28,082 bases of DNA from the IMG/VR virus record IMGVR_UViG_3300028384_001069, positions 1 through 28,082 of that record; one strand, 5' to 3'. The notes beneath the pieces were generated by a model that was not told the DNA's origin, did no database searches, and worked only from the letters and a program-made list of their open reading frames with translations. The translations under genes and the position numbers were made by a program. This DNA is from a virus. The first letter of the stretch is position 1; every line of letters begins with the position of its first letter. Shown here piece by piece: positions 1 through 18,542 of this stretch.

Positions 1-246
1 ATCATGCCTCACAAAAAGATTACTTAGAGGGGCTTAAGTGACCCTTTTTGCCATTTTTCAGAGAGAGGGAGCTAGGCTTATTGCGACTCTAGCTTGTCGC
101 CCAATACCGGGGGGGGCGATGAGAGCGAAGATCACCTATCCAGTGCCCTCTTTCGCTTCGCTCCGGCTTCCGTTCAACGCCTTTAGCGCCGCCCTCGGTG
201 TCCTTCTGTTGCGTTTCTTTCTCCGTTTTGCAACAGAGCTCTTTCC
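1..246. other. Left-end stretch without a confident gene
   Basis: No gene here is supported. Leftward frame 89-331 is open (80 residues, Lys/Glu/Arg-rich) but overlaps the preceding gene out of phase, starts inside it and has no visible ribosome site. A G8 run lies near 110-117. Weak GGG/CCC pairing with an adjacent T run near 31-51 is too short to call a terminator. This may be the tail of the leftward early transcript or a decayed gene. Confidence 0.4.
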
Positions 247-296
247 GAACAGCCGTAACAAGCAACGCTTTCAGCGCGCTTGTTCCTTGGTGTTCT
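247..296 (-). repeat. Long-class nested hairpin repeat (copy T1)
   Basis: Two nested stems are visible. Outer arms GAACA (247-251) and TGTTC (291-295) enclose inner arms AACAAGC (257-263) and GCTTGTT (278-284), capped by CGCT/AGCG around a 3-nt loop. From AAC to GTT on the minus strand it is 47 nt. The stop codon of the gene at 271-603 lies in the loop, so the repeat supplies its C-terminal residues (ENTKEQAR). It closely resembles the copies at 7096-7146 and 8512-8561. Function is unknown; it could be a recombination site, a transcript-end structure or an inserted palindromic element. Confidence 0.75.
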
Positions 297-603
297 CGGA
301 AGAATTGCGAAGCCACGAAGGCAGGGTGCATCCGATCTCCTCAGTGGGGGTGTCCTCGGCCCACCGCTCGCGCCATTTCATCGCCTCGGCTCGGGCTTGG
401 TCGCGTTCACGCTCAAGCTTCTTGGCGTGTTGGCGCAGAAACATGGCGTGTTCTTTCGTGTAGTCGGGAACCCAAAAGCACAGTTCATCGGTTTCTGGCG
501 TATCGGACAACCGAGAACAATCGGAAGCAGGGAGACCGCTTTCGGTCATGTCCTGCAACCCGTCGAGGCTGTCATAGGCGTGATATTCTGCTTTGTGGCT
601 CAT
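271..603 (-). CDS. Hypothetical early protein with coiled-coil centre
   Basis: A 110-residue protein I do not recognise. Residues about 48-80 are rich in Lys/Arg/Glu with heptad-like spacing (HAKKLERERDQARAEAMKWR), predicting a long charged helix or short coiled coil. The start ATG at 603 lies 6 bases past the stop of the upstream leftward gene, so it is probably the last gene of that operon. Codons near residues 17-27 span a strong hairpin (527-556), and the stop codon sits inside a long-class hairpin repeat. Both ends are therefore built on repeats, as for other early genes here. A DNA-binding or assembly-factor role would be a guess. Confidence 0.7.
   Translation of the reverse strand: MSHKAEYHAYDSLDGLQDMTESGLPASDCSRLSDTPETDELCFWVPDYTKEHAMFLRQHAKKLERERDQARAEAMKWRERWAEDTPTEEIGCTLPSWLRNSSENTKEQAR
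527..556 (-). repeat. Hairpin in the 5' coding part of the 271-603 gene
   Basis: Nested arms GCAGG (527-531)/CCTGC (552-556) and GACCG (534-538)/CGGTC (543-547) leave a 4-nt loop. Just downstream on the minus strand is CCGATTGTTCTCGG, carrying the TTGTTC motif that ends the short-class repeats, read in the same frame as Cys-Ser. It is placed as in the short-class leader repeats but does not fit their 40-nt AAC-GTT length, so I treat it as a relative or remnant. Confidence 0.5.
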
Positions 604-608
604 GGTGG

Positions 609-839
609 TTATCGCGGCTCCTGTTCCTTGGCGTTAGCGGATAAAAATTGCTCAATCCTTAGTTCCAGATCCTCCCATCCTTCGATAGCGGCCATACCCC
701 GTTCCTGTTCAGACAGGTGGGAGAAGTCGTATTGTTTTCGCCCCCTTCGATAGTCCATCACTTCCGCTAACAGGGCGGTGGACTCAACGCTGACCGCGTT
801 GGAGTCTCCCGTGTTTTCAATGTCGTTTGTCGCAGTCAT
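609..839 (-). CDS. Hypothetical small acidic early protein
   Basis: A 76-residue protein, not recognised. The ATG at 839 overlaps the stop of the DnaA-domain gene by ATGA, indicating translational coupling. The N-terminal ~25 residues (NTGDSNAVSVESTALL region) are encoded by a 47-nt nested hairpin (769-815). The remainder (MDYRRGRKQYDFSHLSEQER onward) looks like a compact helical domain with many Glu and Arg. The C-terminal ANAKEQEPR is encoded by sequence matching the left half of the long-class repeat. The body lies between two repeat-derived ends, as expected for a cassette. Confidence 0.7.
   Translation of the reverse strand: MTATNDIENTGDSNAVSVESTALLAEVMDYRRGRKQYDFSHLSEQERGMAAIEGWEDLELRIEQFLSANAKEQEPR
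612..635 (-). repeat. Half copy of the long-class hairpin repeat
   Basis: On the minus strand, AACGCCAAGGAACAGGAGC matches the left half of copy T1 at 16 of 19 positions. The matching right half with TTGTT is missing, and the next gene's start follows directly. It encodes the C-terminal NAKEQEPR, which resembles the ends of genes that carry full copies. It could be the scar of a deletion or recombination between repeats. Confidence 0.45.
769..815 (-). repeat. Long-class nested hairpin repeat (copy T6, 47 nt)
   Basis: From AAC to GTT on the minus strand it is 47 nt, as in copy T1. Inner arms CAACGC and GCGTTG with flanking GACT/AGTC give about 10 bp around a 5-nt loop; outer AACA(C)GGG faces CCCTGTT. 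Unlike most long-class copies it lies in the 5' coding part of its gene and is read through in frame. Confidence 0.6.
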
Positions 840-1297
840 CGTGAGTCATCTTTAGCGTTATAGAATTCATCACCGGATGCGGGAACGATCCCCATCGGCC
901 TGCGGATGGCATCGTGGAATGCTTTTCGGAGTCGTCGGTTCTCGGCCAGCAAGTCACCTTCGCTTCCTCCGTTGAGTTTCCCCGCCAGACCTTCGATAAA
1001 GGCGGCAAGCTTCGGTTCCGTCTCTACTGCATCACGAATGCGCTTGGTGGCATGAAAAACCGTTCCATGGTCGCGTTCAAAGGCGGAGCCAATGGTGTGC
1101 AGGCTCAGATGCAGCCGAGTGCGGCATAGATACATGGCGACGTGGCGGGCGAGTGCAACGCTCTTTTGGCGTTCTCGCCCTGTGATTGCTTTCGGGCTTA
1201 TGCTGTAAGCATCGCTAACGATGCGGATAACGTCGGCAATATTATTGGCGACGGGGATCATTTGAAGGGGTGTCATGATGTGGTTGCTAGTTTCCAT
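836..1297 (-). CDS. Stand-alone DnaA domain IV-like DNA-binding protein
   Basis: Residues about 15-85 match the C-terminal DnaA-box-binding domain of DnaA: a helix beginning IRIVSDAYSIS, the basic-loop signature ITGRERQKSVALARHVAMYL, then SLHTIGSAFERDHGTVFHA, equivalent to the conserved SxxxIGxxFxxRDHxTVxHA helix-turn-helix. No AAA+ ATPase domain is present, so this is a DNA-binding module only; the C-terminal ~60 residues are unassigned. It follows a replisome-organiser-like gene. ATG 1297 has a GAAGA site just upstream; ATG 1276 overlaps the previous stop by ATGA and is an equally good start. Inference: it marks the phage origin for host loaders or competes with host DnaA. Confidence 0.8.
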   Translation of the reverse strand: METSNHIMTPLQMIPVANNIADVIRIVSDAYSISPKAITGRERQKSVALARHVAMYLCRTRLHLSLHTIGSAFERDHGTVFHATKRIRDAVETEPKLAAFIEGLAGKLNGGSEGDLLAENRRLRKAFHDAIRRPMGIVPASGDEFYNAKDDSR

Positions 1298-2190
1298 TCT
1301 TCGCGGCATTTCTCCGTCATCCACGCTATGCGCGGGCCAAGATCCGCCCAAGAGGATTGTTTGTGCCATTCAACGAATGACTCGGGGAGGGGTTTAGATT
1401 TATTCTGTTTGGCTCCAGAATTGATTCTGACGCCCTTCTTCTCTGCCCAGCGCGTCGAGTGCCCTAAAACGTCCGCAAACGACTCCACGAGCTTTGTGCG
1501 CGTTCTAGGCACCCAAAATCCCGCGCCTTGTGGGTGTCGAGCTTGGCAGTAGTCGCTTACGAGCCTCCATTGATCGTCGGTGATGGCGGCGAACATCGGC
1601 ATATCGTCGGTGATCGCTCGCATCTCGGCTGCGGTAAGGTGAGTGGGCACGGAATAGGGCGGAGCAAGGGACATTATGCGCTTGGCTATGGCTCGCCCGT
1701 CTGCCTGTCGTTCGCTGACGTAGTCTGCCGATGAGCGAGAGAGCGGAACCTCTCTCTCTCTCTCTCTCTGTCCTTGTCCTTGTCCTTCTCTCTGCACAAA
1801 GCTGGCAGATTCACGGCAGATTTCCGGCAGCGGGTCGGCAGATTTTTCGGATTCCGTGTCGATCAACCATCCTATATTCCTGCTGGTCAGTAACTTACAA
1901 GCGGCATCCACTCGGCACGTTTCGACGCGAATCCGTGTTGCGATGTCCTGAATGGACAACTTTTCACCGTTCGCCCGGACAAGCTTTCCGCGAAGGTTTT
2001 TCGGCTGGGTTGCCGACCACTGGCAGATTGCCATGAAGATCCCAAAAGCCTCCATGCCACCCTCACTGGAGGCTAGCTCAAGGTAGCCATTTGAATCATT
2101 GCCGGATGGGCAATAGAAGAACTTGAGACGCTGCCGCTTTCGTGTATCGGCGTTCTCGTAAAGTTCGCCCCACTTGGCGATTGTCAACAT
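1273..2190 (-). CDS. Phage replisome-organiser-like replication protein
   Basis: A 305-residue protein. The N-terminal ~110 residues (WGELYENADTRKRQRLKFFY ... GIFMAICQWSA ... LRGKL) resemble the winged-helix start of phage replication initiators of the O/DnaD-like type: a Trp-Tyr core, a one-domain helical fold, then a RGKL turn. A low-complexity linker (REGQGQGQREREREVPLS) separates it from a C-terminal ~130-residue domain of unknown family, perhaps for helicase-loader contact. The start ATG at 2190 has an AAAGGAGG ribosome site. It overlaps the DnaA-domain gene downstream, fitting a two-gene initiation module. Family assignment is by pattern, not by search. Confidence 0.6.
   Translation of the reverse strand: MLTIAKWGELYENADTRKRQRLKFFYCPSGNDSNGYLELASSEGGMEAFGIFMAICQWSATQPKNLRGKLVRANGEKLSIQDIATRIRVETCRVDAACKLLTSRNIGWLIDTESEKSADPLPEICRESASFVQREGQGQGQREREREVPLSRSSADYVSERQADGRAIAKRIMSLAPPYSVPTHLTAAEMRAITDDMPMFAAITDDQWRLVSDYCQARHPQGAGFWVPRTRTKLVESFADVLGHSTRWAEKKGVRINSGAKQNKSKPLPESFVEWHKQSSWADLGPRIAWMTEKCREEWKLATTS
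1751..1794. repeat. TC dinucleotide run followed by TCCTTG hexamers inside the replication gene
   Basis: About 19 nt of perfect TC repeat (1751-1769) is followed by a G and about three imperfect TCCTTG/TCCTTC units. On the coding (minus) strand it encodes alternating Arg-Glu and Gly-Gln. Loss or gain of one TC unit would shift the frame of the replication gene, while a change of three units would only change linker length. Confidence 0.9.
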
Positions 2191-2226
2191 CTCGCCTCCT
2201 TTCTTTGTAAGTTTTTTGGCTTCATA

Positions 2227-2312
2227 TCAAAAAAATAAAAGAACCGAAGTCCCTCTCCGTCCAAAGGTGGAAGTGCCGGTATGACGCGGCAGACGGAAAG
2301 GGGCTTCGGTTC
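2227..2312 (-). terminator. Rho-independent terminator or attenuator before the replication gene
   Basis: Arms 2292-2312 and 2241-2261 pair over 21 positions with one mismatch and one G-U. The loop can form a further TGCCG/CGGCA stem. On the minus strand the 3' arm is followed by TTTTATTTTTTT. This fits an intrinsic terminator for the leftward early transcript between the gene at 2441-2854 and the replication gene at 1273-2190, so it would limit readthrough into initiation genes. Confidence 0.7.
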
Positions 2313-2331
2313 TGTTAATATTGGTTGTCAT
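2227..2331 (-). CDS. Possible 34-codon leader peptide across a terminator hairpin
   Basis: The ATG at 2331 is preceded by AGGTGA at 6 nt. The frame runs 34 codons (starting MTTNINRTEAPF, ending SVLLFF) through both arms of the hairpin at 2241-2312 and its U-rich tract, stopping about 37 bases before the start of the replication gene. There is no recognised domain. Its value would be regulatory: ribosomes translating it would open the hairpin. It may equally be a chance open frame. Confidence 0.35.
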   Translation of the reverse strand: MTTNINRTEAPFRLPRHTGTSTFGRRGTSVLLFF

Positions 2332-2347
2332 ACGCAATCACCTGCTT

Positions 2348-2360
2348 CCACACAGTGTGG
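2348..2360. promoter_or_regulatory. Short perfect palindrome, possible operator
   Basis: CCACAC-A-GTGTGG is a perfect 6-bp inverted repeat with a 1-base centre, in the noncoding stretch 2332-2418. No clear promoter boxes could be assigned around it. It could be a dimeric protein-binding site or the stem of a small RNA hairpin. Confidence 0.35.
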
Positions 2361-2418
2361 CCTTTCGGCGGCTTTGGTTTATACTACTGTTTAGAGTGCG
2401 TCAATTAGTATTTCAGAA

Positions 2419-2466
2419 AGAACAGCCTGATTCGGGAGACCTACGGCTCCCGATCTTTAGTGTTCT
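2419..2466 (-). repeat. Long-class nested hairpin repeat (copy T2)
   Basis: Outer arms AGAACA (2419-2424)/TGTTCT (2461-2466) and inner arms TCGGGAG (2432-2438)/CTCCCGA (2447-2453). The outer arms match the 8512-8561 copy exactly while the inner stem has a different but still paired sequence. The stop codon of the gene at 2441-2854 is in the loop, and the repeat encodes its C-terminal ENTKDREP. No T run follows, so it is not a typical intrinsic terminator. Confidence 0.75.
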
Positions 2467-2854
2467 CCGAAATAGCAGCGAGCAGCGTTTCCATGCTGTT
2501 TCGCTCGCCGGAGTGCTCGGCATACCACTCCATTATTTCGCGCTCCGATTTGCCCGCTAGGGTTTCTCGGTGGTCGCCGCGCACGATAAGGCACTCTCGA
2601 TCATCCCACTTGCCACGAGCATATTTCTTGGGGTCGCTGTCGTCTCTGACAATCACAATCGCGGTCTCCCATTCCCAATAGCCGAACCCCGTCAGGCGAT
2701 GCAGGACGGACACCCAAAATCGTTCAGAGAGTCGGCAGATATGGCGTTCGCCGCCCGATTCCTTATCCCACTTGTCGGACACCTCCTCAAACGGAGAACA
2801 AGTCGGTGGAGCACAACGGCCACCCGCCGCTTGGTTTTCGATAGTCTCATTCAT
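2441..2854 (-). CDS. Hypothetical early protein between two hairpin repeats
   Basis: 137 residues, not recognised. The start at ATG 2854 is chosen because AGAAAGGAAA lies 6-7 nt upstream and it overlaps the end of the RusA-like gene by 8 nt; a longer frame would run into that gene. Residues about 7-19 (NQAAGGRCAPPTC) come from a short-class leader repeat. The body (about 25-125) is Trp- and Arg-rich with FGYWEWETAIVIVRDD and KWDDRECLIVRGDHRETL segments, suggesting a beta-rich fold. The last residues come from a long-class repeat. It sits with the nuclease and resolvase genes, but its role is unknown. Confidence 0.75.
   Translation of the reverse strand: MNETIENQAAGGRCAPPTCSPFEEVSDKWDKESGGERHICRLSERFWVSVLHRLTGFGYWEWETAIVIVRDDSDPKKYARGKWDDRECLIVRGDHRETLAGKSEREIMEWYAEHSGERNSMETLLAAISENTKDREP
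2797..2836 (-). repeat. Short-class leader hairpin repeat (copy L0, 40 nt)
   Basis: Exactly 40 nt from AAC to GTT on the minus strand. The 5' arm AAC-c-AAG-CGG pairs with CCG-a-CTTGTT, leaving an extra unpaired base after AAC. It lies inside the first 20 codons of the gene at 2441-2854 and is read as NQAAGGRCAPPTC, ending TGT-TC (Cys-Ser) like copies L2 and L3. Confidence 0.75.
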
Positions 2855-3437
2855 TGTCGTTTCCTTTCTGGTTGTTCGGGTGGCCGTGGCTCTCCTCGGC
2901 GTTGTCGCAATTATCGGCGGAGCAATCCACTGCTTTTCGGAATTTCGGGACACATTCTAGGTAGTCCTGCCACCGCCATTTATTCCCCCTAGCGTCTCCT
3001 TTGAACATTGGATTCTCGCCACATGCCTCACATATCGCCATTGCCAAGACGGCATCGGAAAACGCGGACAATCCGCCGGAATACGGAGTGATTTCCAGAA
3101 GGATAGCAGGGCCTTGGCTGCGGTCTTTTTTGCACTGGTAAAACCTCGTTTCAGTGATCCATTTTGGCCCGTCGTCATGGAACCATCCGCACGCGACAAG
3201 CGCGTCTTCGATCTCCTTCCAGTTACCTCGCCCGATGCTCGATACGTCCCAGAGACGTTGACCCGGACCAAGCAGGCGCGTTACGGATACAGAGACCGGC
3301 ACGTCGAACGGCTCACGGGTGAGGCCCAACCTTTTGAGGTCGTGCTCGAACTGTTTCCTGAGCTTGGCGCTGGAAAACCATTTGTTACCTCGCCCGTCGT
3401 TTCCGTTGGTGAGTTCAAACGGCAGATTGATGATCAT
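2847..3437 (-). CDS. RusA-like Holliday junction resolvase
   Basis: 196 residues. The central segment 61-115 (RLWDVSSIGRGNWKEIEDAL, then FHDDGPKWI, then a KKDR...ILLEI strand) resembles the RusA pattern of an Asp, a helix with K and D, then a D-D pair. Candidate acidic residues are D64, D78, D88 and D89. The classic D-x-D-N is degenerate, so activity is not assured. The C-terminal part has CEACG and several more Cys. The ATG overlaps the exonuclease stop by ATGA, placing it in a recombination operon where RusA-type resolvases are common. Alternative: a non-catalytic relative. Confidence 0.55.
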   Translation of the reverse strand: MIINLPFELTNGNDGRGNKWFSSAKLRKQFEHDLKRLGLTREPFDVPVSVSVTRLLGPGQRLWDVSSIGRGNWKEIEDALVACGWFHDDGPKWITETRFYQCKKDRSQGPAILLEITPYSGGLSAFSDAVLAMAICEACGENPMFKGDARGNKWRWQDYLECVPKFRKAVDCSADNCDNAEESHGHPNNQKGNDNE

Positions 3438-4297
3438 GCGACCTCCTTTCGCTCAAGATCTTCCTCTTCGTTCATTGCTTGATAGGGCAGGGGACCAAGC
3501 TCGGAAGAGTTCTTTAAATAGCGACTATGGATGCCACGGCGTGCGCAGGTGGCGAAGTCTTCCAATGCTGCGGCAACGGAGCGGCGGCCAAGGTCAAGGT
3601 CGTCTTGAGGTAGTATGACCACACGCACTTCCAACGTGGCGCGGTCTTGGAAGATGAAGCCAAAGCGCTCGCAGTAACGATCCTCTGACGCCTTGTTCCA
3701 CATCGTCCGATAGAAAGCGGCCTGCCAGTGATATTTCCATTGGCCAATCGTCCGGCGGATCGACTCGTCATCGAGACCTTCGGTGGTCTTGTAGTCCCAC
3801 AAGACTTCGTCCCATGCCTCTTCCTTCGGCACGATGTCGAGCAGGCACTTGGCGGGAGTTCCGCCGATCTCGCTGACGATGCCAACTTGGTAGTCAGCAG
3901 CGGCGACGATAGGGCCGGCGACGGGATGCTCTCGGACTTTCTCAGCAGCGTTTCGGGCGTGCGTCAGGCTTTCCTCGGTGACGATCAGGTCGCCGCTCTC
4001 AAGGATGCTATCGCGCCATTCACGAGCTTCCTTCTTTTTGAAGTCAGGATAAGGGGAAAGGTGGCACTGAGCCTCTAGCAAGTTAGGTTCAGTCAGCGCG
4101 TAGTCGAAGAGTGAACCGGCGCGCATGGCCGATGTCGTTTTCTTCTCGGGACCAAATCTCCATGCGAAGGGGTTCGGAGCGAAGGACTTGAGCATTGAGC
4201 AGGAGATTGGGCCGTTGATAAGTTTAGACTTGTCCAACTCCCAAGCGTGATAATCACGCGAGCTGATGCCGTAGTGTATGCCAGGAGAGGTCACCAT
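3434..4297 (-). CDS. PD-(D/E)XK exonuclease, RecE/YqaJ-like recombination nuclease
   Basis: 287 residues. An N-terminal SxLK-type helix (ISCSMLKSFAPNPFAWRFGP, 31-50) and GSLFDYALTEP (61-71) are typical of phage exonucleases of the RecE C-terminal/DUF3799 kind. The catalytic core is visible as CLLDIVP (D154), then VLWDYKTTEG (D168, K170), then a Gln-containing helix WQAAFYRTMW (Q192). Such enzymes degrade one strand of duplex DNA for annealing-type recombination. The upstream neighbour is a small OB-like protein and the downstream one a RusA-like resolvase, forming a recombination set. No RecT/Erf annealase is seen; the SSB-like protein at 7296 might substitute (inference). Confidence 0.8.
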   Translation of the reverse strand: MVTSPGIHYGISSRDYHAWELDKSKLINGPISCSMLKSFAPNPFAWRFGPEKKTTSAMRAGSLFDYALTEPNLLEAQCHLSPYPDFKKKEAREWRDSILESGDLIVTEESLTHARNAAEKVREHPVAGPIVAAADYQVGIVSEIGGTPAKCLLDIVPKEEAWDEVLWDYKTTEGLDDESIRRTIGQWKYHWQAAFYRTMWNKASEDRYCERFGFIFQDRATLEVRVVILPQDDLDLGRRSVAAALEDFATCARRGIHSRYLKNSSELGPLPYQAMNEEEDLERKEVA

Positions 4298-4710
4298 GAC
4301 TCAGGCATCCTTCCTGTGTTAGGGTCAATCAGAAGCACGCGAACGCATGGACCTTGCTTCCCGCCGAGATCTGGGCGGCGGTCGTTTTCCAGTCCGAGAG
4401 CGATTTTCTTGCCGTGCCATCCTTCGCCAATCGTTCCATGCAGCGAGATCAGTCGTTTAATGTTCGTCTTGGCGAGCTTCAGGGGCTTGTCGCTTCCTTT
4501 GAAGTGGAGAAGGTAGCACTCCCGATCAGTGCTTCCGTTTTCGTATTTTAGGACTTGGTGAAAATCCACGAAGTCAATTTCGACGGTGATGTGGTCCGCG
4601 CCTTTCTTCTCCAGTGCGCCTTGAAGGACGATGGCATTGAGGAAGCGCGAATCCAGCGCTTTGGTCATATCCCCATCACAGGGTTCTCCTTTGGGTATTG
4701 GTTTGCTCAT
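4291..4710 (-). CDS. Phage early protein with likely OB-like fold
   Basis: 139 residues. The sequence shows a pattern familiar from small phage proteins beside recombination nucleases: a strand pair VTVEIDFVDFHQ, then YLLHFKGSDKPLKLAKTNIK, then GEGWHGKKIALGLE, then GPCVRVLLID near the end. This reads like a beta-barrel with a K-T-N motif and a W-x-G-K-x-I motif. I know of no firm function; nucleic-acid binding is a guess. It is the first gene of the leftward early operon and overlaps the nuclease start by 7 nt. No Shine-Dalgarno sequence precedes the ATG at 4710. Confidence 0.65.
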   Translation of the reverse strand: MSKPIPKGEPCDGDMTKALDSRFLNAIVLQGALEKKGADHITVEIDFVDFHQVLKYENGSTDRECYLLHFKGSDKPLKLAKTNIKRLISLHGTIGEGWHGKKIALGLENDRRPDLGGKQGPCVRVLLIDPNTGRMPESW

Positions 4711-4767
4711 GCTGTAGTTAATTCGTTTTTCATGTATTCGTTTCGTTACGAGCCAGTCAGATCAAGG

Positions 4768-4794
4768 CGTTGGCATAAGTAAACATCGCCAACG
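4768..4794. promoter_or_regulatory. Operator-like inverted repeat in the divergent control region
   Basis: CGTTGGC (4768-4774) and GCCAACG (4788-4794) form a perfect 7-bp inverted repeat around an AT-rich 13-bp spacer. It lies in the 149-bp gap between the leftward and rightward early operons, where one bound dimer could affect both promoters. An AT-rich run (4800-4835) follows towards the rightward genes. Exact -35/-10 boxes are not clear by eye. The small protein encoded at 4860 is a candidate ligand. Confidence 0.5.
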
Positions 4795-4859
4795 AGCAAC
4801 CGCAATAAAAAAGAAACTTTTTCTTTACTGCTGATCATTCCTGTGATTCACTACTTCCG

Positions 4860-5045
4860 ATGAGCGACAAGAAGCGCACTTTAATTGAAACTTCGCCCCA
4901 GATCAAAGACAGGGTGAAGAAGCTGCACGAAAAAACGGATGGCGTAACAATGCCGGTTGTCACCGACGCGGTTCTTGAGGAAGGGCTGAAACCTTTCGAG
5001 AAAGGAACCCTCAAAATTCAAACCATAGTTAAAAAAGCTAAATGA
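4860..5045 (+). CDS. Small ribbon-helix-helix-like protein, possible early regulator
   Basis: 61 residues. The sequence can be read as one beta strand (KRTLIETS), helix A (PQIKDRVKKLHEKTD) and helix B (MPVVTDAVLEEGLKPFE), the order of Arc/MetJ-type ribbon-helix-helix repressors. It is the first gene of the rightward operon, next to the divergent control region and its 7-bp inverted repeat, a usual place for an autoregulator. No Shine-Dalgarno sequence is obvious before the ATG. The last codons overlap the next gene (AAATGA). The assignment rests on predicted secondary structure only. Confidence 0.55.
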   Translation: MSDKKRTLIETSPQIKDRVKKLHEKTDGVTMPVVTDAVLEEGLKPFEKGTLKIQTIVKKAK

Positions 5046-5320
5046 AAACCACGCTATACATTACAAATCAAGGCTTGGAGCTTGAGTGCGACCAGCAGGA
5101 CTGTGACTGCTCGGTGAAGATCCCGATTGAGAAGTTGACACCTCGGGGAGCTATTCCTTGGGAGGACGCTGGCGAGCTGGCCGAGGCTTACGCTGACGAA
5201 CATCACGACTGGTATCAAGGAACCTGCGCCGACTGCTCCGAGCCGATTCGCCGGGATATTGCAGCCGTTGAGCGTGCCGAGATGGAGATCAAGCGCAACA
5301 AAGAGGAGGCTTTCTTATGA
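5042..5320 (+). CDS. Small zinc-ribbon-like early protein
   Basis: 92 residues. Cysteines occur as C-x4-C-x-C near residues 16-22 (CDQQDCDC) and C-x2-C near 60-63 (GTCADCSEPI), enough for one zinc site, with an acidic helical stretch between. The remainder is charged with a Glu/Arg/Lys-rich C-terminal helix. The start codon overlaps the stop of the 4860 gene and its own stop overlaps the next start, so it lies in a tightly coupled operon. No enzymatic motif is seen; a nucleic-acid or host-protein interaction role is possible. Confidence 0.65.
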   Translation: MKTTLYITNQGLELECDQQDCDCSVKIPIEKLTPRGAIPWEDAGELAEAYADEHHDWYQGTCADCSEPIRRDIAAVERAEMEIKRNKEEAFL

Positions 5321-5637
5321 GTGCGACTGGCGAACAACTACGCGACGATGCCTTGTTGGCTATCGAAACGTCTAACGAGGGGCAGATTCAGAAAGCTGTT
5401 GAGCTGATCAAATTTGCGGCTCCGCGCCTGCTGGAATTCACCACTGATGACATCTTTATCGAGCCTGACGACTGGAACTTCACTGACAACAGGGCGATCG
5501 GTCCTGCAATGGTTCGTGCTGCTCGCTTGGGGATCATCAAAGGAACCGACCGAGTGAGGAAGTCAACCCGCGCCAAGTGCCACGCACGGCCCAAGCGAGT
5601 CTGGATCTACACCCCGAAAACGCCATGCAACTCCTAA
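5317..5637 (+). CDS. Winged-helix phage protein
   Basis: 106 residues. The C-terminal half (NRAIGPAMVRAARLGIIKGT, then VRKSTRAKCHARPKRVWIY) matches a pattern seen in many phage early proteins, in which a helix with G-x-A-x2-x-A-x-R-x-G-x-I is followed by a basic wing ending H-x-R-P-x-x-V-W. This suggests a small DNA-binding winged helix. The N-terminal half is helical and acidic. It overlaps the upstream stop by ATGA, and a 24-codon membrane peptide begins inside its 3' end. The exact target is unknown. Confidence 0.7.
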   Translation: MSATGEQLRDDALLAIETSNEGQIQKAVELIKFAAPRLLEFTTDDIFIEPDDWNFTDNRAIGPAMVRAARLGIIKGTDRVRKSTRAKCHARPKRVWIYTPKTPCNS

Positions 5638-5699
5638 TCGCCTTCGCTCTCGTATTGATATCTCTCTTTATCCTCTTTTACTGCTCTGGAAAATCATGA
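5625..5699 (+). CDS. 24-residue single-pass membrane micropeptide
   Basis: The ATG at 5625 lies inside the end of the winged-helix gene in another frame. It encodes 24 residues, starting MQLLIAFALVLISLFILFYC and ending SGKS: almost entirely one hydrophobic helix with a short polar end. The stop codon overlaps the next gene's ATG (ATGA), the coupling seen throughout this operon, which is the main support for it being real. It could be a membrane-acting early peptide (superinfection exclusion, host membrane modulation) or a chance frame. Confidence 0.5.
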   Translation: MQLLIAFALVLISLFILFYCSGKS

Positions 5700-5836
5700 G
5701 ACCTCACAATGATCCATTTAATTTGAAGCGCGACCACTCAGGCCGCGTAAACCGCAGACGCACGCCGAATTTTATCGCCTGGTATCTGGTGTTCGTCGTC
5801 TTCGTGGTCCTTCTTCTTACGTTTACTTGTGTTTAA
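5696..5836 (+). CDS. 46-residue membrane micropeptide
   Basis: Starts in ATGA overlap with the preceding micropeptide. The N-terminal ~25 residues are strongly basic (NLKRDHSGRVNRRRTPN), followed by one hydrophobic segment (FIAWYLVFVVFVVLLLTF) and a short TCV end. The positive N-terminus favours a cytoplasmic N-side by the positive-inside rule. No homolog is recalled. With the 24-residue peptide it forms a coupled pair of membrane proteins in an early operon, a setting where phages carry superinfection-exclusion or anti-defence proteins (inference). Confidence 0.55.
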   Translation: MRPHNDPFNLKRDHSGRVNRRRTPNFIAWYLVFVVFVVLLLTFTCV

Positions 5837-5859
5837 CGCCTAGCTGACGCACCCGAGCC

Positions 5860-6144
5860 ATGAATGAGAACACATCACCACCGATGCCCGACCACCCATC
5901 ACCGCCGATGCCTCAACACGTCACGGGCGAGGGTTGCCCGTCCAGCGATTTGTTGGGCGCTTTGGAGGACGCCTATCTGCACACAGACAAAGCAGACGAC
6001 ATCGTGCAATGGAACGATGCCGCCGACGTGCAACACCTGATAGCCGTTGCGAGGGGATGCCTTCGGAAATCCTTGGAACTCATGAGCGCATTGCCGCCCA
6101 ACGCTGAGCTGAGACGCGCCAGCCGCGACACCGACAACACCTAA
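5860..6144 (+). CDS. Hypothetical early protein with repeat-derived N-terminus
   Basis: 94 residues, not recognised. The first ~20 residues contain two near-identical units (SPPMPDH, SPPMPQH) from a tandem DNA repeat. The next ~13 come from a 40-nt hairpin repeat (5915-5954). The likely folded part starts near LLGALEDAYLH and includes a helical segment VQHLIAVARGCLRKSLELM. It ends 4 bases before the next ATG. A pure helical bundle is predicted; the function is unknown. Confidence 0.65.
   Translation: MNENTSPPMPDHPSPPMPQHVTGEGCPSSDLLGALEDAYLHTDKADDIVQWNDAADVQHLIAVARGCLRKSLELMSALPPNAELRRASRDTDNT
5872..5920 (+). repeat. Two-copy tandem repeat in the 5' end of the 5860 gene
   Basis: Two adjacent ~24-nt units differ at a few positions, each carrying CATCACC(A/G)CCGATGCC. 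They give the peptide units SPPMPDH and SPPMPQH. Length is a multiple of three, so copy-number change would keep frame. Confidence 0.7.
5915..5954 (+). repeat. Short-class leader hairpin repeat (copy L1, 40 nt)
   Basis: Exactly 40 nt from AAC to GTT. Inner arms ACGGGC (5923-5928)/GCCCGT (5936-5941); outer CAACA (5914-5918)/TGTTG (5951-5955). The end reads GTTGGGC, which fits the GTTRRRY core of integron attC sites. It is read in a different frame from the other short-class copies (Leu-Leu rather than Cys-Ser at the end). Confidence 0.65.
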
Positions 6145-6148
6145 GACC

Positions 6149-6535
6149 ATGCCAAACCAATCCGCTCACGAATCCAACACGGCGGCTGATGGGCGTCGAT
6201 CTCCGGCGACTTGTTCGGGATTGCGGGCTGCTCCGACGCTCCCTCAATACCGCCCATCAACGGATAAAGACGACCTAGTGACTGAGTTTATCAAAGCCAA
6301 CCTCTACGCCGAGGATCAAACAGTCAAAGTTGGCCACATCCCAACAATCATTAAAGCCGGGACAACCCTGTTGAGTTTTCGGCAGATTGAAGAGGGAACC
6401 AAGTTGAGCCCCAAGAGCGTCCGATGCGCCATCAAGCGGCTTGTAGAATACGGAGAGGTCACCGCTGAATCGCACGAGAAGCGATACACGGTTTTTGGTC
6501 TCCCGAACGTCAAAGCTGAATCGCGCCATGAGTGA
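6149..6535 (+). CDS. Winged-helix DNA-binding early protein
   Basis: 128 residues. Residues about 42-120 form a plausible winged helix: DDLVTEFIKANLYAE, a linker, TLLSFRQIEEGTKLS, recognition helix PKSVRCAIKRLVEYGEV, then a wing EKRYTVFGLPN. This resembles replication or transcription regulators with MarR/DnaD-like topology. The first ~30 residues (QSAHESNTAADGRRSPATCS) are encoded by a short-class leader repeat and look like an appended leader. It starts 4 bases after the previous stop and overlaps the next gene's start by 8. The binding site is unknown. Confidence 0.65.
   Translation: MPNQSAHESNTAADGRRSPATCSGLRAAPTLPQYRPSTDKDDLVTEFIKANLYAEDQTVKVGHIPTIIKAGTTLLSFRQIEEGTKLSPKSVRCAIKRLVEYGEVTAESHEKRYTVFGLPNVKAESRHE
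6176..6215 (+). repeat. Short-class leader hairpin repeat (copy L2, 40 nt)
   Basis: Exactly 40 nt from AAC to GTT, followed by CGGG. Read as NTAADGRRSPATC-S. Outer AACA/TGTT pairs; the internal stem is weaker than in L3 and L4, with GTCG (6194-6197)/CGAC (6207-6210) the clearest pairing. It is assigned to the family by length, end motifs, position and reading frame. Confidence 0.65.
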
Positions 6536-6776
6536 AAGCAACGAAAACAACAAAGGCGCTGACATGGCGTCGAATCCAGCGCCTTGTTCTGCCTTTCGTG
6601 GTTACAAGAAAATTGATTTTGAGGTCTTTTGGAACCAGAACGACCGGATCACCATTCGCCAAGGATACACAAACATACAGATTCACCCCGGCGCTATCGG
6701 CTACCTTTACGGTATGTTAAAAGATGTGCGCGATGAAATGGAGGACCAAGACCTTGAGTGGAGGGAAGTTGATTAG
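6528..6776 (+). CDS. Hypothetical small early protein with repeat leader
   Basis: 82 residues, not recognised. ATG 6528 is chosen over an upstream in-frame codon because it is overlapped by the previous stop and matches the MSE-type starts of sibling genes. Residues about 6-20 (NNKGADMASNPAPCS) come from a leader repeat. The body YKKIDFEVFWNQNDRITIRQ ... IHPGAIGYLYGMLKDVRDEM looks like a small alpha/beta domain with a helix carrying G-Y-L-Y-G. It ends in acidic residues. There is no clear ribosome site; coupling to the upstream gene is likely. Confidence 0.65.
   Translation: MSESNENNKGADMASNPAPCSAFRGYKKIDFEVFWNQNDRITIRQGYTNIQIHPGAIGYLYGMLKDVRDEMEDQDLEWREVD
6549..6588 (+). repeat. Short-class leader hairpin repeat (copy L3, 40 nt)
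   Basis: Best-paired short-class copy. AAC-a-AAGGCGCTG faces CAGCGCCTTGTT, giving 12 bp with one extra unpaired A after AAC. It is read as NKGADMASNPAPC-S and followed by CTGCC. The extrahelical base at the same place as in L0 and L4 is a shared structural feature. Confidence 0.8.
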
Positions 6777-6848
6777 GCAGAACGAAAGAGTCATGGCGAC
6801 CCCGGCGAGCAACGGCGGCGGTCCCGAAACTGAAACCAAGTCCAAGCA

Positions 6849-7130
6849 ATGAGTGAGAAATCCAACAAAGCCGCTGATAGGGGTCGCCCATCGACGGCTT
6901 GTTATCGGCTTTCTTTGTTCCACCCCACGACGCGGACTAAGTTCGGTGATGATAACTGCCTGAAAATCTATGACATCGTAATAGCCAACAAGTCCCGCCA
7001 TCGTGATGAGATTGTAAAAATACTAAAGGAAGATGGGTTGATAGCTAAAACTACCGCATCAATCGACGTGCACTTTATACGGAAAATTCTTTCCGATAAC
7101 AAAGAGAACAAGCGCGGCGATAGCCGTTGA
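6849..7130 (+). CDS. Hypothetical early protein bounded by hairpin repeats
   Basis: 93 residues, not recognised. The leader MSEKSNKAADRGRPSTACYR comes from a short-class repeat and the C-terminal DNKENKRGDSR from a long-class repeat, whose 3' arm holds the stop codon. The core (about 25-82) includes KIYDIVIANKSRHRDEIVKI and KEDGLIAKTTASIDVHFIRK, which resembles a helix-turn-helix-like helical unit. It lies 72 bases after the previous gene. The core has lower GC than its neighbours by eye, suggesting a separate origin. Confidence 0.65.
   Translation: MSEKSNKAADRGRPSTACYRLSLFHPTTRTKFGDDNCLKIYDIVIANKSRHRDEIVKILKEDGLIAKTTASIDVHFIRKILSDNKENKRGDSR
6864..6903 (+). repeat. Short-class leader hairpin repeat (copy L4, 40 nt)
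   Basis: AAC-a-AAGCCG pairs with CGGCTTGTT, again leaving one unpaired base after AAC. Exactly 40 nt. It is read as NKAADRGRPSTAC-Y and lies 15 bases after the ATG of its gene. Confidence 0.8.
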
Positions 7131-7146
7131 TTGTTCGGACTGTTCT
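7096..7146 (+). repeat. Long-class nested hairpin repeat (copy T3)
   Basis: Outer ATAACA (7096-7101)/TGTTCT (7141-7146, one mismatch); inner GAACAA (7106-7111)/TTGTTC (7131-7136) and GGC (7116-7118)/GCC (7123-7125). Its flanks are nearly identical to the copy at 8512-8561 (14 nt on the left, about 22 nt on the right), while the loop-proximal stem differs but still pairs. The stop codon of the 6849 gene is at 7128-7130. Confidence 0.8.
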
Positions 7147-7166
7147 GACCCACTATGAAAACTTTT

Positions 7167-7276
7167 GGCGCCAGCGTAGATTTAACGGATGAGTAGAACC
7201 CTCTAAAGAGGCGAACACTGCATCGAGGTCGGGAGGACGAAAGGTCCGCAACCTTGGAAACCCGGACGCTGGCGTC
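7167..7276 (+). ncRNA. Candidate structured RNA of unknown class
   Basis: The 165 bases between genes hold a compact set of stems. The closing stem GGCGCCAGCGT (7167-7177)/ACGCTGGCGTC (7266-7276) has 11 bp with one G-U. Inside are CCTC-TAAA-GAGG (about 7200-7211) and a two-part arm AGGT (7226-7229)/ACCT (7251-7254) enclosing GGAC-GAAAG-GTCC (7235-7247). I compared it by eye with hammerhead, twister, HDV, pistol, group II domain V and common riboswitches and found no convincing match. It lies just upstream of the SSB-like gene, so a cis-regulatory role or a free RNA are both possible. Confidence 0.5.
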
Positions 7277-7295
7277 AATTAAACCAACAACGAAT

Positions 7296-7616
7296 ATGCA
7301 AAACCAATCAGCAGGAATCCTGCGAATAAATATAGACGTTACCAAGATCGACAAAAGCCGACTCTTCAAAGGAAAGAAAGGCACTTACTTGGACATCTCC
7401 GTCTTGCTCAAAAACGAACCCGACCAATACGACAACGACGGCATGGCCGTTCAGGATCTTGGCAAGGAAGCGCGAGACCGGGGTGAGAAAGGAGAAATCC
7501 TCGGCAACGCGAAATGGGCTGTAAGACCGTACAACCAACCCAGCCAACCGAGAGCGCAGCACAATAAAGAGGACGCGCACGTTGAGTATGTGGACGAAGA
7601 CGAGATGCCCTTTTAG
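7296..7616 (+). CDS. SSB-like single-stranded DNA-binding protein
   Basis: 106 residues from ATG 7296; an in-frame upstream extension would run through the structured noncoding stretch and is unlikely. The N-terminal part GILRINIDVTKIDKSRLFKG, then GTYLDISVLLKNEPDQYDND, then a GEKGEILGNAKWAV strand reads like a small OB fold. After a Gln/Pro/Asn-rich linker it ends VDEDEMPF, the acidic tip typical of bacterial SSB proteins (DDDIPF) that recruits partner enzymes. Role: coating of ssDNA during phage replication and recombination. Shorter than E. coli SSB. The family is inferred from tip and topology. Confidence 0.65.
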   Translation: MQNQSAGILRINIDVTKIDKSRLFKGKKGTYLDISVLLKNEPDQYDNDGMAVQDLGKEARDRGEKGEILGNAKWAVRPYNQPSQPRAQHNKEDAHVEYVDEDEMPF

Positions 7617-7619
7617 ACC

Positions 7620-7847
7620 ATGACCACACCAAACACCTTGCCCAACGACATCGCTCGATGCGACGGTGTCGGCAGCGATGACCCAGAGGAAGGATGGCGC
7701 GATGGCTGTGAGACCTGCTTACGTCGAACATCGACACGGGCGGAAAGGTCCATCATAATGGAGCCACCGCCGATCATTGCGTTTGAGTGCGAATTCCTCA
7801 TCGAGCCAGAGAACGCCGAGTCCAGTCACGCGAGGAACGAGCGTTGA
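7620..7847 (+). CDS. Hypothetical cysteine-containing early protein
   Basis: 75 residues. The segment NDIARCDGVGSDDPEEGWRDGCETCLRRTS carries C-x15-17-C-x2-C, a spacing that could bind zinc and recalls small phage proteins of the 'RCxG ... CxxCLRRT' type with no known function. The remainder (IIMEPPPIIAFECEFLIEPE) is hydrophobic-acidic. It starts 3 bases after the SSB-like stop. Its stop lies in a weak hairpin related to the long-class repeats. Confidence 0.65.
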   Translation: MTTPNTLPNDIARCDGVGSDDPEEGWRDGCETCLRRTSTRAERSIIMEPPPIIAFECEFLIEPENAESSHARNER

Positions 7848-7864
7848 TCTGCGACGTTTTGTTC
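7835..7864 (+). repeat. Weak relative of the hairpin repeats (copy T5)
   Basis: GAAC-gag-CGT (7835-7844) faces ACG-tttt-GTTC (7854-7864), with TGTTCTGC at the end as in copy L3. It straddles the stop of the 7620 gene and lies just before the GP88-family gene. Pairing is poorer than in other copies, so membership is tentative. Confidence 0.4.
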
Positions 7865-7880
7865 TGCAATCCGATTTTTT

Positions 7881-8588
7881 ATGAAGCCGGCATTCACAAA
7901 AGTAAACCGATACATCTTCGACCCTAAAGCGTGGTCATGGTCTATCCCGTCGGGAACAACCTGTCCCGGCGCGGAGCAGTGCCTCGCCAAAGTGGACAGG
8001 GAAACGGGACAAATGATAAACGGCCCGAAGCAGGAATTCAAGTGCTACGCTGCGGTAAGTGAACGGTATCCATCCGTCCGCAAACGCTACTGGACAAACT
8101 TCGATGCTGTCCGCGGGAAAACGTGCGATGAAGTGGCGGGTGTGTTAAGTGATTGCTTCCCTAAAAACGCGAAGCGAGTCCGAGTGCATACCGCTGGAGA
8201 CTTCTTCTCGGAGGAATACTTCAAGGGGTGGATGCAATTCGCAGCGTCGAAACCGGACGTTCAATTCTGGGCGTTTACCAAGTCGATCCCGTTCTGGGTT
8301 CGCAACATGGAAACGGTTCCGTCCAACATGGAACTGCAAGCGTCCTACGGGGGCAGATGGGACGGCATGATTAAGGAACACGGCTTGAAGTATGCCAGGG
8401 TAGTATGGTCGCCAGAGGAAGCGGCATCGCTAGGGCTAGAGATCGACACCGACGATAAACTAGCTGCATTCCCCGGCCCGTCCTTCGCTCTAGTCGAAAA
8501 TTTTACCAAGCAGAACAAAGAGAACAATCACGCTGAAAGCGTTGATTGTTCGGACTGTTCTAACCCACGAGGAATACTCGGCAGTTGA
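7881..8588 (+). CDS. GP88-family phage protein
   Basis: 235 residues. The pattern TCPGAEQCLAKVDRETGQM, GPKQEFKCYAAVSERYPSVR, RVRVHTAGDFFSEEYFKGW, FWAFTKSIPFW and LQASYGGRWDGMI, followed by an ALGLEIDTDDK-like stretch, matches the 'Gene product 88' family found in actinophages and others. The three conserved Cys (CPG, QCL, KCY) may bind metal or a cluster. Function is not established. The last ~20 residues (QNKENNHAESVDCSDCSNPR) are encoded by a long-class hairpin repeat read straight through, so this C-terminus is probably not part of the ancestral protein. It starts 33 bases after the 7620 gene. Confidence 0.8.
   Translation: MKPAFTKVNRYIFDPKAWSWSIPSGTTCPGAEQCLAKVDRETGQMINGPKQEFKCYAAVSERYPSVRKRYWTNFDAVRGKTCDEVAGVLSDCFPKNAKRVRVHTAGDFFSEEYFKGWMQFAASKPDVQFWAFTKSIPFWVRNMETVPSNMELQASYGGRWDGMIKEHGLKYARVVWSPEEAASLGLEIDTDDKLAAFPGPSFALVENFTKQNKENNHAESVDCSDCSNPRGILGS
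8512..8561 (+). repeat. Long-class nested hairpin repeat (copy T4, best folded)
   Basis: Outer AGAACA (8512-8517)/TGTTCT (8556-8561); inner GAACAATCA (8522-8530)/TGATTGTTC (8543-8551) and CGCT (8531-8534)/AGCG (8538-8541), GAA loop, one bulged T at 8542. This is 19 base pairs in about 50 nt. It is the long-class copy with the best pairing and the clearest match to 7096-7146. It lies inside the C-terminal codons of the GP88-family gene. Confidence 0.9.
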
Positions 8589-14490: not shown

Positions 14491-15841
14491 AAGTTTCCCC
14501 CATCGTCTCGGGTTTCTCGCCCCACGGTGTCCGGGCGCACAAAAAACGGATGTTTCGCAGTTCGACTGTTCCTAGCTCGCCCTCCGGCACCTTCACTTCT
14601 AGGCTCCAGTCTCCCACTTTATCGCCTCCTGTCCATTCCCATGACTTCGGCGTCACCGTTGGCGCAATGCCGCCCGGTTCGCCCCATCCTTCAGGGAAAA
14701 ACACCTCATCCCACTCGATCTTGTAATATGTTCCGGCATGGCTGGCGGGAACAGTGAATCGGTAGCGAAATCTCTTTTCCAAGAATGAGTATTGAAGGCT
14801 ATCTCCTCCCGTCATGCCGTCCCCTTGCTGCGGCCAACTAGTTGATTTCTCCGCGAGAGCATCTGAGCCTGACGAGAAAACCAGCAATGAGCAATCGCCA
14901 TCATAAGACCCGCCCCCAACAATTATATCATCCCACGCTTCGTTGAGAAACGCTTCGCCATCAGCTATGGAATCTGACTTTGTGAAGTCTTCCGAAAGGG
15001 TCCAAGTTCTGCGCGTTGTGGTGACTCTGGTGAACGATCCTGAATTGGTTCCGCTGTTCAAATACCAACTTCCATACCAACCCGAGGGCACTGCTTCACT
15101 ACCTGATCCTGATTCGGTGACGGTGCTGCCTTCTATCTTGATGGTGTCGGTTGTGCTGTCCAGATCGACGACAACCGTGCTTCCCGTCGCCGGTTGGTGC
15201 TCAAGGGTCTTGGTCGGCAGTTCTCCGCTTGCTCCTAAAGCGGAGTCTAGTTCGCAACCTCCGTTTCCATCGCTTTGATACGTGTGAGTCCGGGAGTGGT
15301 CTTCAGACTCGTTAGTTGTGTTTCCATTTCTGTCAGTCTCTTCAAAAGTGAACTCGCTGGTAAAGATATTGGTTGTTACTGATCCTGTATCATTACAATC
15401 GCCCTTGTCTACATCACAACCAAATGGTGAAGATCTCTCATCTTTATCATACAAGGGAGGAATGGTCCTTTGAGGGATGTAATGATTGCCAGTCGGAGGA
15501 GCCTGAGATTCATCGCTGAATTCACGGTTGATTACAGATGATGAATTAACAGAAGACTCTTCGCCATCAACATATATCCTCCAGTTTCGAGTTTCGCTTT
15601 CCTCTGACTCGCCCACATCGCTATATTCAAATTCAAACGTCTCCGCTAAATACAAATTAGGCACATCGCCTCCAGACTCATTATCTGGGTCATAAGTATA
15701 AGGAGCGAAAGCAGAAACCGTCCGAGAGCCATCAAGACTCTCGGCCTCAAGAATAGGAGCTGGACAGGCAGGCATCTCACAACACCCGCAAGCGTCGAGG
15801 CGAGCATTCCAGTCGGAAAGCGTTTCGATCTCGTCAGGCAT
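14480..15841 (-). CDS. Hypothetical large acidic virion (tail-tip) protein
   Basis: 453 residues. Acidic, rich in Ser, Thr, Glu, Gly and Asp, with Cys clusters at the start (CGCCEMPACPAP) and CDVDKGDCND in the middle. A short basic run (RTHTYQSDGN) and repeated strand-like segments (FTRVTTTRRTWTLSEDFTKS, GTYYKIEWDEVFFPEGWGEP) suggest several beta domains. Its position after the tape measure and two other hypotheticals and before the fibre suggests a tail-tip or baseplate hub component. It overlaps upstream and downstream genes, indicating coupled translation. Confidence 0.65.
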   Translation of the reverse strand: MPDEIETLSDWNARLDACGCCEMPACPAPILEAESLDGSRTVSAFAPYTYDPDNESGGDVPNLYLAETFEFEYSDVGESEESETRNWRIYVDGEESSVNSSSVINREFSDESQAPPTGNHYIPQRTIPPLYDKDERSSPFGCDVDKGDCNDTGSVTTNIFTSEFTFEETDRNGNTTNESEDHSRTHTYQSDGNGGCELDSALGASGELPTKTLEHQPATGSTVVVDLDSTTDTIKIEGSTVTESGSGSEAVPSGWYGSWYLNSGTNSGSFTRVTTTRRTWTLSEDFTKSDSIADGEAFLNEAWDDIIVGGGSYDGDCSLLVFSSGSDALAEKSTSWPQQGDGMTGGDSLQYSFLEKRFRYRFTVPASHAGTYYKIEWDEVFFPEGWGEPGGIAPTVTPKSWEWTGGDKVGDWSLEVKVPEGELGTVELRNIRFLCARTPWGEKPETMGETYEP

Positions 15842-16385
15842 AACTCAGCGTTCCGGGGCAGTGATTCAGTTGAACAGGCGAGCATGGACCGGTGTGCGTG
15901 TAGGTCGGCACGCCGGATTCCACCACCAGCGTTCCAAGTGGAATAATTTGCGTTCCCGCGGGCGTGTCGATGGTCGGTAATGTCTGGTCCGGGTAGCTCG
16001 CTCCCGTCTCAAAGCTCGGCGCGCTGCTCGTCTCTAACCCCGGCAAAAGAACGTTGTCTTGCTCGTTGGCCGTGACCGAGATCGATAGCCAAACGACATG
16101 ATCAAAATCAGAAGCCACGCTGAAAGCCTTGTCGTTCACCTGGTGCACCGAGTCTCCACCGGTGACGCTGCCGCCTCGGATGAACCAGTCGTCGTTGTCG
16201 TCTTGGTAGATTTTATGGAAGCCTTTACAGAAGCCGCTCCCGCCTCCGCCCTGCTTGGACGGCGGTATGATGTAAACCCTATCCCGTAACTGCTGGATCG
16301 CCTTGTTGACTTGCGGTGCCCACTTGGCGAACTTACCACTGCTAGGCGGCAGATTTACTGTTCCTCTTGCTTTGGCGACCCTCAT
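15834..16385 (-). CDS. Hypothetical virion protein with basic N-terminus
   Basis: 183 residues. The start is basic and helical (AKWAPQVNKAIQQLRDRVYI), then a glycine stretch (KQGGGGSGFCKG), then beta-rich Ser/Thr/Pro sequence with paired Cys near the C-terminus (GPCSPVQLNHCPGTL). It overlaps the 453-residue gene by 8 nt and the gene before it by ATGA. Likely a tail-tip component by position; no recognised family. Confidence 0.6.
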   Translation of the reverse strand: MRVAKARGTVNLPPSSGKFAKWAPQVNKAIQQLRDRVYIIPPSKQGGGGSGFCKGFHKIYQDDNDDWFIRGGSVTGGDSVHQVNDKAFSVASDFDHVVWLSISVTANEQDNVLLPGLETSSAPSFETGASYPDQTLPTIDTPAGTQIIPLGTLVVESGVPTYTHTGPCSPVQLNHCPGTLSYA

Positions 16386-17234: not shown

Positions 17235-18542
17235 TTAAAATCCGGGTTGTGGGTCTGGTTTTCTTAGAATTGCCTCGGTCGCTTCAGCAATCCGCTCGTT
17301 ACTCATCCCGGTCTTGCGCCACCACTCCTGACGCGCCTCAAGTTCTGCAATTCGTTGATACCGACTAAAAGCCGCTGTTTGACTCGGCACGTTGAACGCT
17401 GCGCTGTTCTTGCTCATGAGTTCAGAGAAATCAGGAGTGGTTCCGCTCATAAAGGCATTATCCCAAGTTGAAGGAGCTCCCTCAGAAGGAACTCCAACCC
17501 TGCCGTATAGCCCTCCCCCCCCTGCGTTCAAAACCCCATACCCAAAAGCCTGGAGCTTCTTCTTGCGTTCTGAGTCACTCTTGATTTTCTTGCCAATGTC
17601 GGTTTTTCCAAAAGCTGAGAGCATCTTCAATATGGCATACTCAAGTGCTGACGCAATGAAAGCGGCGAACTTCGATCCTGCCAACTTGAGCGAATCCCAA
17701 ACAAGCTCACCAAACACTCCGTTCTCGAAAGACGCTTGAACGGTCTTGATGAAGCTGCCAAAACTCTCCCCCAAGGAAGTCAGATCAAGCTGATTAAGCA
17801 AGTCCGCCATCTTCTCCAGAGAGGGAAGAATCTCCGAGGCCATCCCGGCAAAGAACTGATCAGACTTTAAGCCGATCGACCCGAGCGCGTCGGAAATTTT
17901 ATCGAAACGGTCGGCCATTTGGTCCATATTGGAACCCAGCTCACCCACGCTCTGACGCGATATTCGCATCACGTTGGCAAAGTCCTTGAATGTGTTGACC
18001 AACTTGAATCCGTCATCACCGAAAAGCTTCATGGCTACGTCCGCTTGCAACGACTCATCACCAAGCTCATTCATGGCCTGCCCTATCTTCACGAACCTTT
18101 GAGGCAAGGATAAATCAAGAAGTTCTTTGTTCCTTAAACCAAGAACATTCAGCGCGTCGGCATACTCGCCGGTCTCTTTCTGAACGCCGATCAACGTCCG
18201 GCGGCCCATCCGTTGAAGCACGGTTCCCACCTTGTCTCCCTCAATGCCGGTTCGCCGGAATATCTCTTTGAGCATGACCATCTGCTTGACCGTGCCGCCC
18301 ACTTTTGCCGCCATGTCGCTGAGTTCGCCACCCATGTCGATAACGCCCTTGAGCCCCTTGCCCATGCCCGCGACTCCCATGATCGGCGCAAGCAACGCCA
18401 TGAGTTTGACAAACGGTGCCAACATGGTCCGCCCAACAGCGGCCATCCCTTTGCCCAGCGTATTGAATCCCGCGCTGACCTTGGCGAATCCTCGTGTAAC
18501 GGCGGTGCCGTCAAACCCTAGCTTTACGGTGCTCCCAATCAT
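17235..18542 (-). CDS. Tail tape measure protein (short)
   Basis: 435 residues. The N-terminal ~60 residues carry a typical tape-measure start (GFDGTAVTRGFAKVSAGFNT) with a hydrophobic segment (MLAPFVKLMALLAPIMGVAG) and Gly/Ala-rich helices. The rest is long alpha-helix with few Cys or Pro (GELSDMAAKVGGTVKQMVML, MDQMADRFDKISDALGSIGL) and two more hydrophobic segments near 285-315. It follows the frameshifted chaperone genes, the usual order. If length scales as in other siphophages (about 0.15 nm per residue), the tail would be near 65 nm. That is short, but still a siphovirus-like tail. Confidence 0.85.
   Translation of the reverse strand: MIGSTVKLGFDGTAVTRGFAKVSAGFNTLGKGMAAVGRTMLAPFVKLMALLAPIMGVAGMGKGLKGVIDMGGELSDMAAKVGGTVKQMVMLKEIFRRTGIEGDKVGTVLQRMGRRTLIGVQKETGEYADALNVLGLRNKELLDLSLPQRFVKIGQAMNELGDESLQADVAMKLFGDDGFKLVNTFKDFANVMRISRQSVGELGSNMDQMADRFDKISDALGSIGLKSDQFFAGMASEILPSLEKMADLLNQLDLTSLGESFGSFIKTVQASFENGVFGELVWDSLKLAGSKFAAFIASALEYAILKMLSAFGKTDIGKKIKSDSERKKKLQAFGYGVLNAGGGGLYGRVGVPSEGAPSTWDNAFMSGTTPDFSELMSKNSAAFNVPSQTAAFSRYQRIAELEARQEWWRKTGMSNERIAEATEAILRKPDPQPGF

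Follow-up and report, generated by a model that had tools for sequence, protein, structure and literature searches.

Why should the early genes of a phage be studded with short inverted repeats, and what could such repeats be for? The question is raised by a single IMG/VR virus record, IMGVR_UViG_3300028384_001069, with 28,082 bases; the whole record was analysed and we call it the window. Early genes are organized in two divergent arms which start at about 4.8 kb: the left arm is on the minus strand, the right arm is on the plus strand and extends to about 8.8 kb. Late genes are found beyond this position. The closest named phage by terminase and portal is Verrucomicrobia phage P8625 (22–29% identity), whose gene order resembles that of the window, and the host is probably a bacterium of the Verrucomicrobia/Verrucomicrobiota. 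A search with the capsid alignment gave no prophages in bacterial genomes, and GC skew did not place the replication origin of the phage. The original prediction described a family of hairpins confined to the early arms, similar to integron attC sites, which might turn early genes into movable cassettes.

The predicted hairpins are all present. A scan for AACA-spacer-stem-spacer-TGTT gave seven distinct sites, all of them early and none in the late region of about 19.5 kb, as had been proposed; three control tetranucleotides gave 0–2 sites per strand. Five elements, starting at 2797, 5915, 6176, 6549 and 6864, have the same AAC-to-GTT length of exactly 40 nt and give a good alignment. A looser scan for any AAC..GTT hairpin, compared with 64 triplets, gave a count which is ordinary for the base composition, so that the weight of the argument rests on conserved sequence and layout. 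The simple pattern AACAA..TTGTTC is not enriched in relatives, and the matches of a loose hairpin pattern in IMG/VR are at chance level.

Three covariance models were used to identify the repeats. Model R1 was built from three short phage elements (a1, a10 and a12 in Table 1) and recovers a fourth one, a4. Model R2 was built from the five 40-nt phage hairpins only, which correspond to the R''L'' half of a site. For model R3 the training set was 18 bacterial attC sites, of which about half lie beside intI and about half were found with R2. Genomes of likely hosts were picked with a Verrucomicrobia 16S probe, which gave 20 Verrucomicrobiota genomes; nine of them have a true IntI, above the TIGR02249 cut-off. 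Several of their integron integrases (L314–L327) are found at contig ends, perhaps because the arrays break the assembly.

In 638 kb of integron loci and phage relatives, the best three matches of R2 and two of the next five fall in cassette arrays upstream of intI. Over the 20 genomes, about 15 of the 28 fetched matches are complete attC sites by manual reading, mostly of about 125–130 nt and with complementary second halves. R2 matches the reverse complement of the R''L'' half of attC; thus the phage elements are R''L'' halves of longer sites, opposed to the genes. The extents first given were too short: 2797–2836, 5915–5954, 6176–6215, 6549–6588 and 6864–6903 are only the R''L'' halves of sites of 91–131 nt. 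The weaker relatives do belong to the family, but not as separate elements: 527–556 and 612–635 are two parts of one probable site (512–639), and 7835–7864 is part of 7808–7867.

Beside intI, R3 recognizes sites on which it was not trained in four loci (L317, L318, L326 and L327). In the phage it finds six sites with E values from 1.5e-11 to 0.002; a1, a2, a6 and a12 are weak matches, and altogether six of the 12 sites are weak with this model (E>1 or not listed). Nothing credible appears in the late region, where the best match is a 20-nt stretch with E=0.91, nor in 756 kb of other phages related by capsid, terminase or GP88 (best E=0.28). The phages closest by capsid are without attC sites, and R3 matches neither P8625 nor the CALIN (a cluster of attC sites without integrase) of phage TJE1. 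The model is partly circular in its R''L'' part, as about half of its training sites came through R2; the L'R' half and the sites adjacent to intI are free of this circularity, and the L'R' half, absent from R2, is matched by R3 in the phage sites too. A short pattern for the 3' end of attC was no better than its control in the genomes. As for the paired stems in which covariation had been expected, it is not significant within the phage copies alone but strong in the bacterial attC set used for R3.

Judged by their sequence, the phage repeats are integron attC sites of the Verrucomicrobiota kind: the reciprocal searches with R2 and R3 agree on this identity. The lack of a visible integron integrase is also confirmed, since the record encodes no tyrosine recombinase (PF00589). 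We count 12 putative attC sites, six of them well supported (a3, a5, a7, a8, a9 and a11) and six probable. Three sites lie within 6096–6907 in a record with no intI, which makes them a CALIN by the usual definition (at least two close attC, no integrase).

Table 1. Putative attC sites and neighbouring early genes in the window
Feature	Position	Strand	Evidence and remarks
attC a1, short, probable	244–298	+	Antisense to gene 271–603(−); R1 training member; R3 E=1.3 (weak)
attC a2, probable	512–639	+	R3 E=1.8 only; R' CCTTGGCGTTAGC; gene stop/start inside
attC a3	765–863	+	R3 E=1.1e-4; holds stop/start of genes 836–1369 and 609–839
attC a4, short, probable	2415–2467	+	R1 match on gene strand (−), outside R1 training set, E=0.0014
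attC a5	2793–2907	+	R3 E=4.8e-9
attC a6, probable	5831–5958	−	R3 E=2.9 (weak); R''L'' half is an R2 training member
attC a7	6096–6219	−	R3 E=2.1e-8; exact match to attC 5'-half pattern
attC a8	6502–6592	−	R3 E=1.7e-9
attC a9	6777–6907	−	R3 E=1.5e-11; exact match to attC 5'-half pattern
attC a10, short, probable	7092–7149	−	R1 training member; layout; gene 6849–7130 ends inside with DNKENKRGDSR and stop
attC a11	7808–7867	−	R3 E=0.0021
attC a12, short, probable	8510–8563	−	R1 training member; weak R3 match; DNA fold z about −6
Gene between a1 and a2	271–603	−	ORF, no family match
Gene between a2 and a3	609–839	−	Relative in phage G052 (L391 484–651), adjoining attC 627–758
Two genes between a3 and a4	836–2190	−	One with DnaA C-terminal domain, PF08299 E=1.5e-22
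Gene between a4 and a5, no assigned function	2441–2953	−	ORF
Four small genes, one each in intervals a6-a7-a8-a9-a10	5860–7130	+	ORFs; stop/start mostly within attC loop
Two genes between a10 and a11	7254–7847	+	Relatives in other phages, some with attC, some without
GP88 family gene between a11 and a12	7881–8588	+	PF17338 E=1.3e-34; relative at 79% identity

The sites have the layout R''-spacer-L''-loop-L'-spacer-R', with two pairs of boxes (R''/R', which contain AAC/GTT, and L''/L') and unpaired spacers. This layout is clear in a5, a8, a9 and a12 and weaker in a2, a7 and a10; in a4 it reads AACA-7-stem-7-TGTT. In a5, a8, a9 and a12 none of 200 shuffles pairs L'' with L' as well as the real sequence, and in a6 one of 200 does; a2 (16 of 200 shuffles are equally good), a4 and a10 show weak pairing, and that of a7, taken alone, is no better than shuffles. 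A motif C[AG]AC, 15–18 nt after AAC, provides the extra-helical base in L'' in ten of the 12 sites, as read from the alignments; a6 has it as CAAC. Most sites with this motif show a gap of L'' against L', as in bacterial attC sites, and the stem of a1 has its bulge on the L'' side. Of the box consensus (RYYYAAC for R'' and GTTRRRY for R'), AAC/GTT is kept, but many R' boxes start with GTTC; the same is found in Verrucomicrobiota attC sites.

Are the early genes movable, as was proposed? Homology does end at site borders and other phages differ at such sites, but the signs of exchange are indirect. The homology of the GP88 gene to L213/L214 covers 7882–8503 of the window, just inside the sites which end at 7867 and start at 8510. 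That of gene 7620–7847 to G012/G004 stops at residue 64–65, at the start of attC a11. Ordinary mosaicism at gene borders could be the cause in both cases. The cassette genes of the window have no match in 289 Verrucomicrobiota genomes, and chimeric queries gave no IMG/VR relatives of the small early genes.

An exact pattern matching two window sites led to eight IMG/VR contigs. R3 has matches in seven of them, five of which have five to 18 sites; none of the eight has IntI. G050 and G052, two related attC-bearing phages of 38–40 kb, have one attC in common, 89% identical over 141 nt; the rest is mostly 65–79% identical. This attC is found at non-matching places in the two phages, which suggests recent movement. 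At one spot in the late region G050 has a 199-bp interval, G052 has one attC and a third phage, G051, has two; the border is near a GTT on one side only.

The orientation of the sites is a peculiarity of this phage. They had been predicted to follow transcription in both arms: their relation to it is indeed constant, but the attC direction itself is opposite to transcription, plus in the left arm and minus in the right arm. There is mostly one gene per attC interval, but every gene runs against attC, so none reads toward its own R'' as a gene does in an integron cassette. On the gene strand the crossover in R' is AAC, an in-frame Asn codon in all ten upstream genes with at least 60 aa; the exceptions are genes which are short or end ahead of the site (a6, a9). 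Upstream genes run into attC with AAC in frame, and the C-terminal tail of each gene is thus written in the next site. Such tails, each followed by a stop codon, are SENTKEQAR (in gene 271–603(−), which reads through a1 and ends SSENTKEQAR), YNAKDDSR, PNVKAESRHE and ENAESSHARNER. Where a site is long, its L''-L' loop mostly holds both the stop codon of a gene and the start codon of the following one.

In other attC-bearing phages the same phase is found in 10 of 12 genes (G050 5/6, G052 4/5, G051 1/1). The naive probability of this bias is <1e-6, a value in which sites common to several phages are not independent. The bias may be partly passive, since the antisense frame in this phase is open in 17 of 18 bacterial attC sites, slightly more often than the frames in the other two phases (12 and 13). 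Folding of attC is favoured on the lagging-strand template (PMC5371416). Given the attC direction in the window, the recombinogenic bottom strand coincides with the coding strand; this would be the lagging-strand template if replication started at the divergent centre, an assumed position of the origin, and proceeded outward. Alternatively, the direction may belong to the cassettes themselves, since the sites of G051 and G052 at the late-region spot run with the late genes.

We consider it quite probable, with a chance of about four in five, that the window contains Verrucomicrobiota-type attC sites in two integrase-less clusters, with which a host IntI would swap early genes of a phage probably infecting that phylum. 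The host integron integrase would act in trans during infection and recombine the folded bottom strand of the phage sites; early genes would be gained, lost or swapped in this way. Since nearly all genes read the crossover AAC in one and the same phase, a swap should leave the upstream gene open, and a stop codon in the incoming attC would then end it. More tentatively, at rather less than even odds, we propose that these sites define a distinct class of phage cassettes with inverted, coding-embedded and phase-fixed attC: the incoming attC would give the previous gene its tail and stop and the next gene its start, so that the host integrase would serve as an exchanger of early-gene modules.

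The sites might also be domesticated: derived from integrons but no longer recombining, they would be kept as stop/start and translational coupling signals between early genes. The ATGA stop/start pairs inside long sites and the fixed frame fit this idea, as do the degradation of some R' boxes and stems and the lack of an integrase in the phage; however, related arrays of other phages show less degradation and the attC common to G050 and G052, at different places in the two, suggests recent movement, so that we find it unlikely. RNA hairpins at the junctions of early transcripts, for RNase III processing or nut-like or translational control, would explain the confinement to the early arms, the constant relation to transcription and the junction position, but they leave the likeness to bacterial integron attC unexplained. 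Nut and RNase III sites were rejected; there is no Rfam match at the sites either, and we give this explanation very little credit, while a secondary RNA role alongside attC is possible. Terminators were also considered and rejected as the identity of the repeats. In-frame palindromic mobile elements inserted into early genes, like the palindromes read in frame within protein genes of Rickettsia, have in common with the phage sites a constant reading frame and the overlap with gene ends, but they are hardly credible here since they are contradicted by the reciprocal model searches: homology links the phage sites to full-length attC adjacent to intI, their layout is that of attC with its two boxes, and they are found at gene borders, not inside domains.

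If the sites are attC in exchange with a host integrase, how do they compare with known systems? CALINs have been described in virulent phages, and for some of them IntI1 was shown to mediate recombination with attI1 (Qi et al. 2023, PMC9892861). An attC cluster without integrase is common to those phages and to ours. The cluster of TJE1 has three attC sites and the structure of a typical integron array (PMC9892861), whereas in the window about 12 sites are spread over both divergent early arms, antisense to the genes without exception, overlapping with coding sequence and in a fixed phase. The chromosomal integrons of Verrucomicrobiota (G026–G045) belong to the same attC family, with the R''/L''/L'/R' layout and C[AG]AC with its extra-helical base. 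They differ by the presence of an integrase, which the phage lacks, and by the direction of their genes: these run with attC in the arrays inspected, against it in the phage. What seems to be new is the Verrucomicrobiota type, the number of sites, their inversion in the left and right early arms alike and the fixed-phase coding through the sites; we found no description of a fixed-phase, inverted attC layout in the open-access literature searched. Verrucomicrobiota is not among the 11 taxon attC models of Ghaly et al. 2021 (PMC8352920). Their attC sites being outside the published models, phages of this kind may have escaped notice: a single specific pattern has already brought up seven further viral contigs with these sites. 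If our reading is true, the integron, a familiar vehicle of resistance genes, would reshuffle the early genes of phages as well, and a testable route is available by which genes become cassettes.

Some other features deserve to be mentioned. The viral contig G046 (L393, L394), of 166 kb, has two clusters with 18 attC sites altogether and no integrase; among its ORFs there are several which run with the attC direction, opposite to the window. G053 (L395), a 197-kb viral contig, has five attC sites at its start, one of which is 88% identical to a site of G046. In the attC array of G050 (L389), the genes at 15380–16255 and 17418–18248 are similar to a family related to RNA ligases and to a Mom-like protein of DNA modification. 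Two viral contigs of 7.4 and 6.1 kb (L105 6133–6192 and L109 1491–1550) have a hairpin like the short phage elements (R1 E=0.013), which may be due to chance. In the window, the sole Pfam match of gene 836–1369(−) is the DnaA C-terminal DNA-binding domain (PF08299), with no ATPase domain reported. After gene 2441–2953, at 2227–2322(−), there is a long hairpin followed by a T run, similar to a terminator; this region also gives a match to mraW RNA below threshold (E=0.0015). Finally, the interval that follows a10 contains, at 7165–7275(+) and ahead of the next gene, a multibranched RNA fold (about 110 nt, z −3.05) closed by the outer stem GCGCCAGCGT/ACGCTGGCGT; it has no Rfam match and is possibly a structured RNA of a new type.
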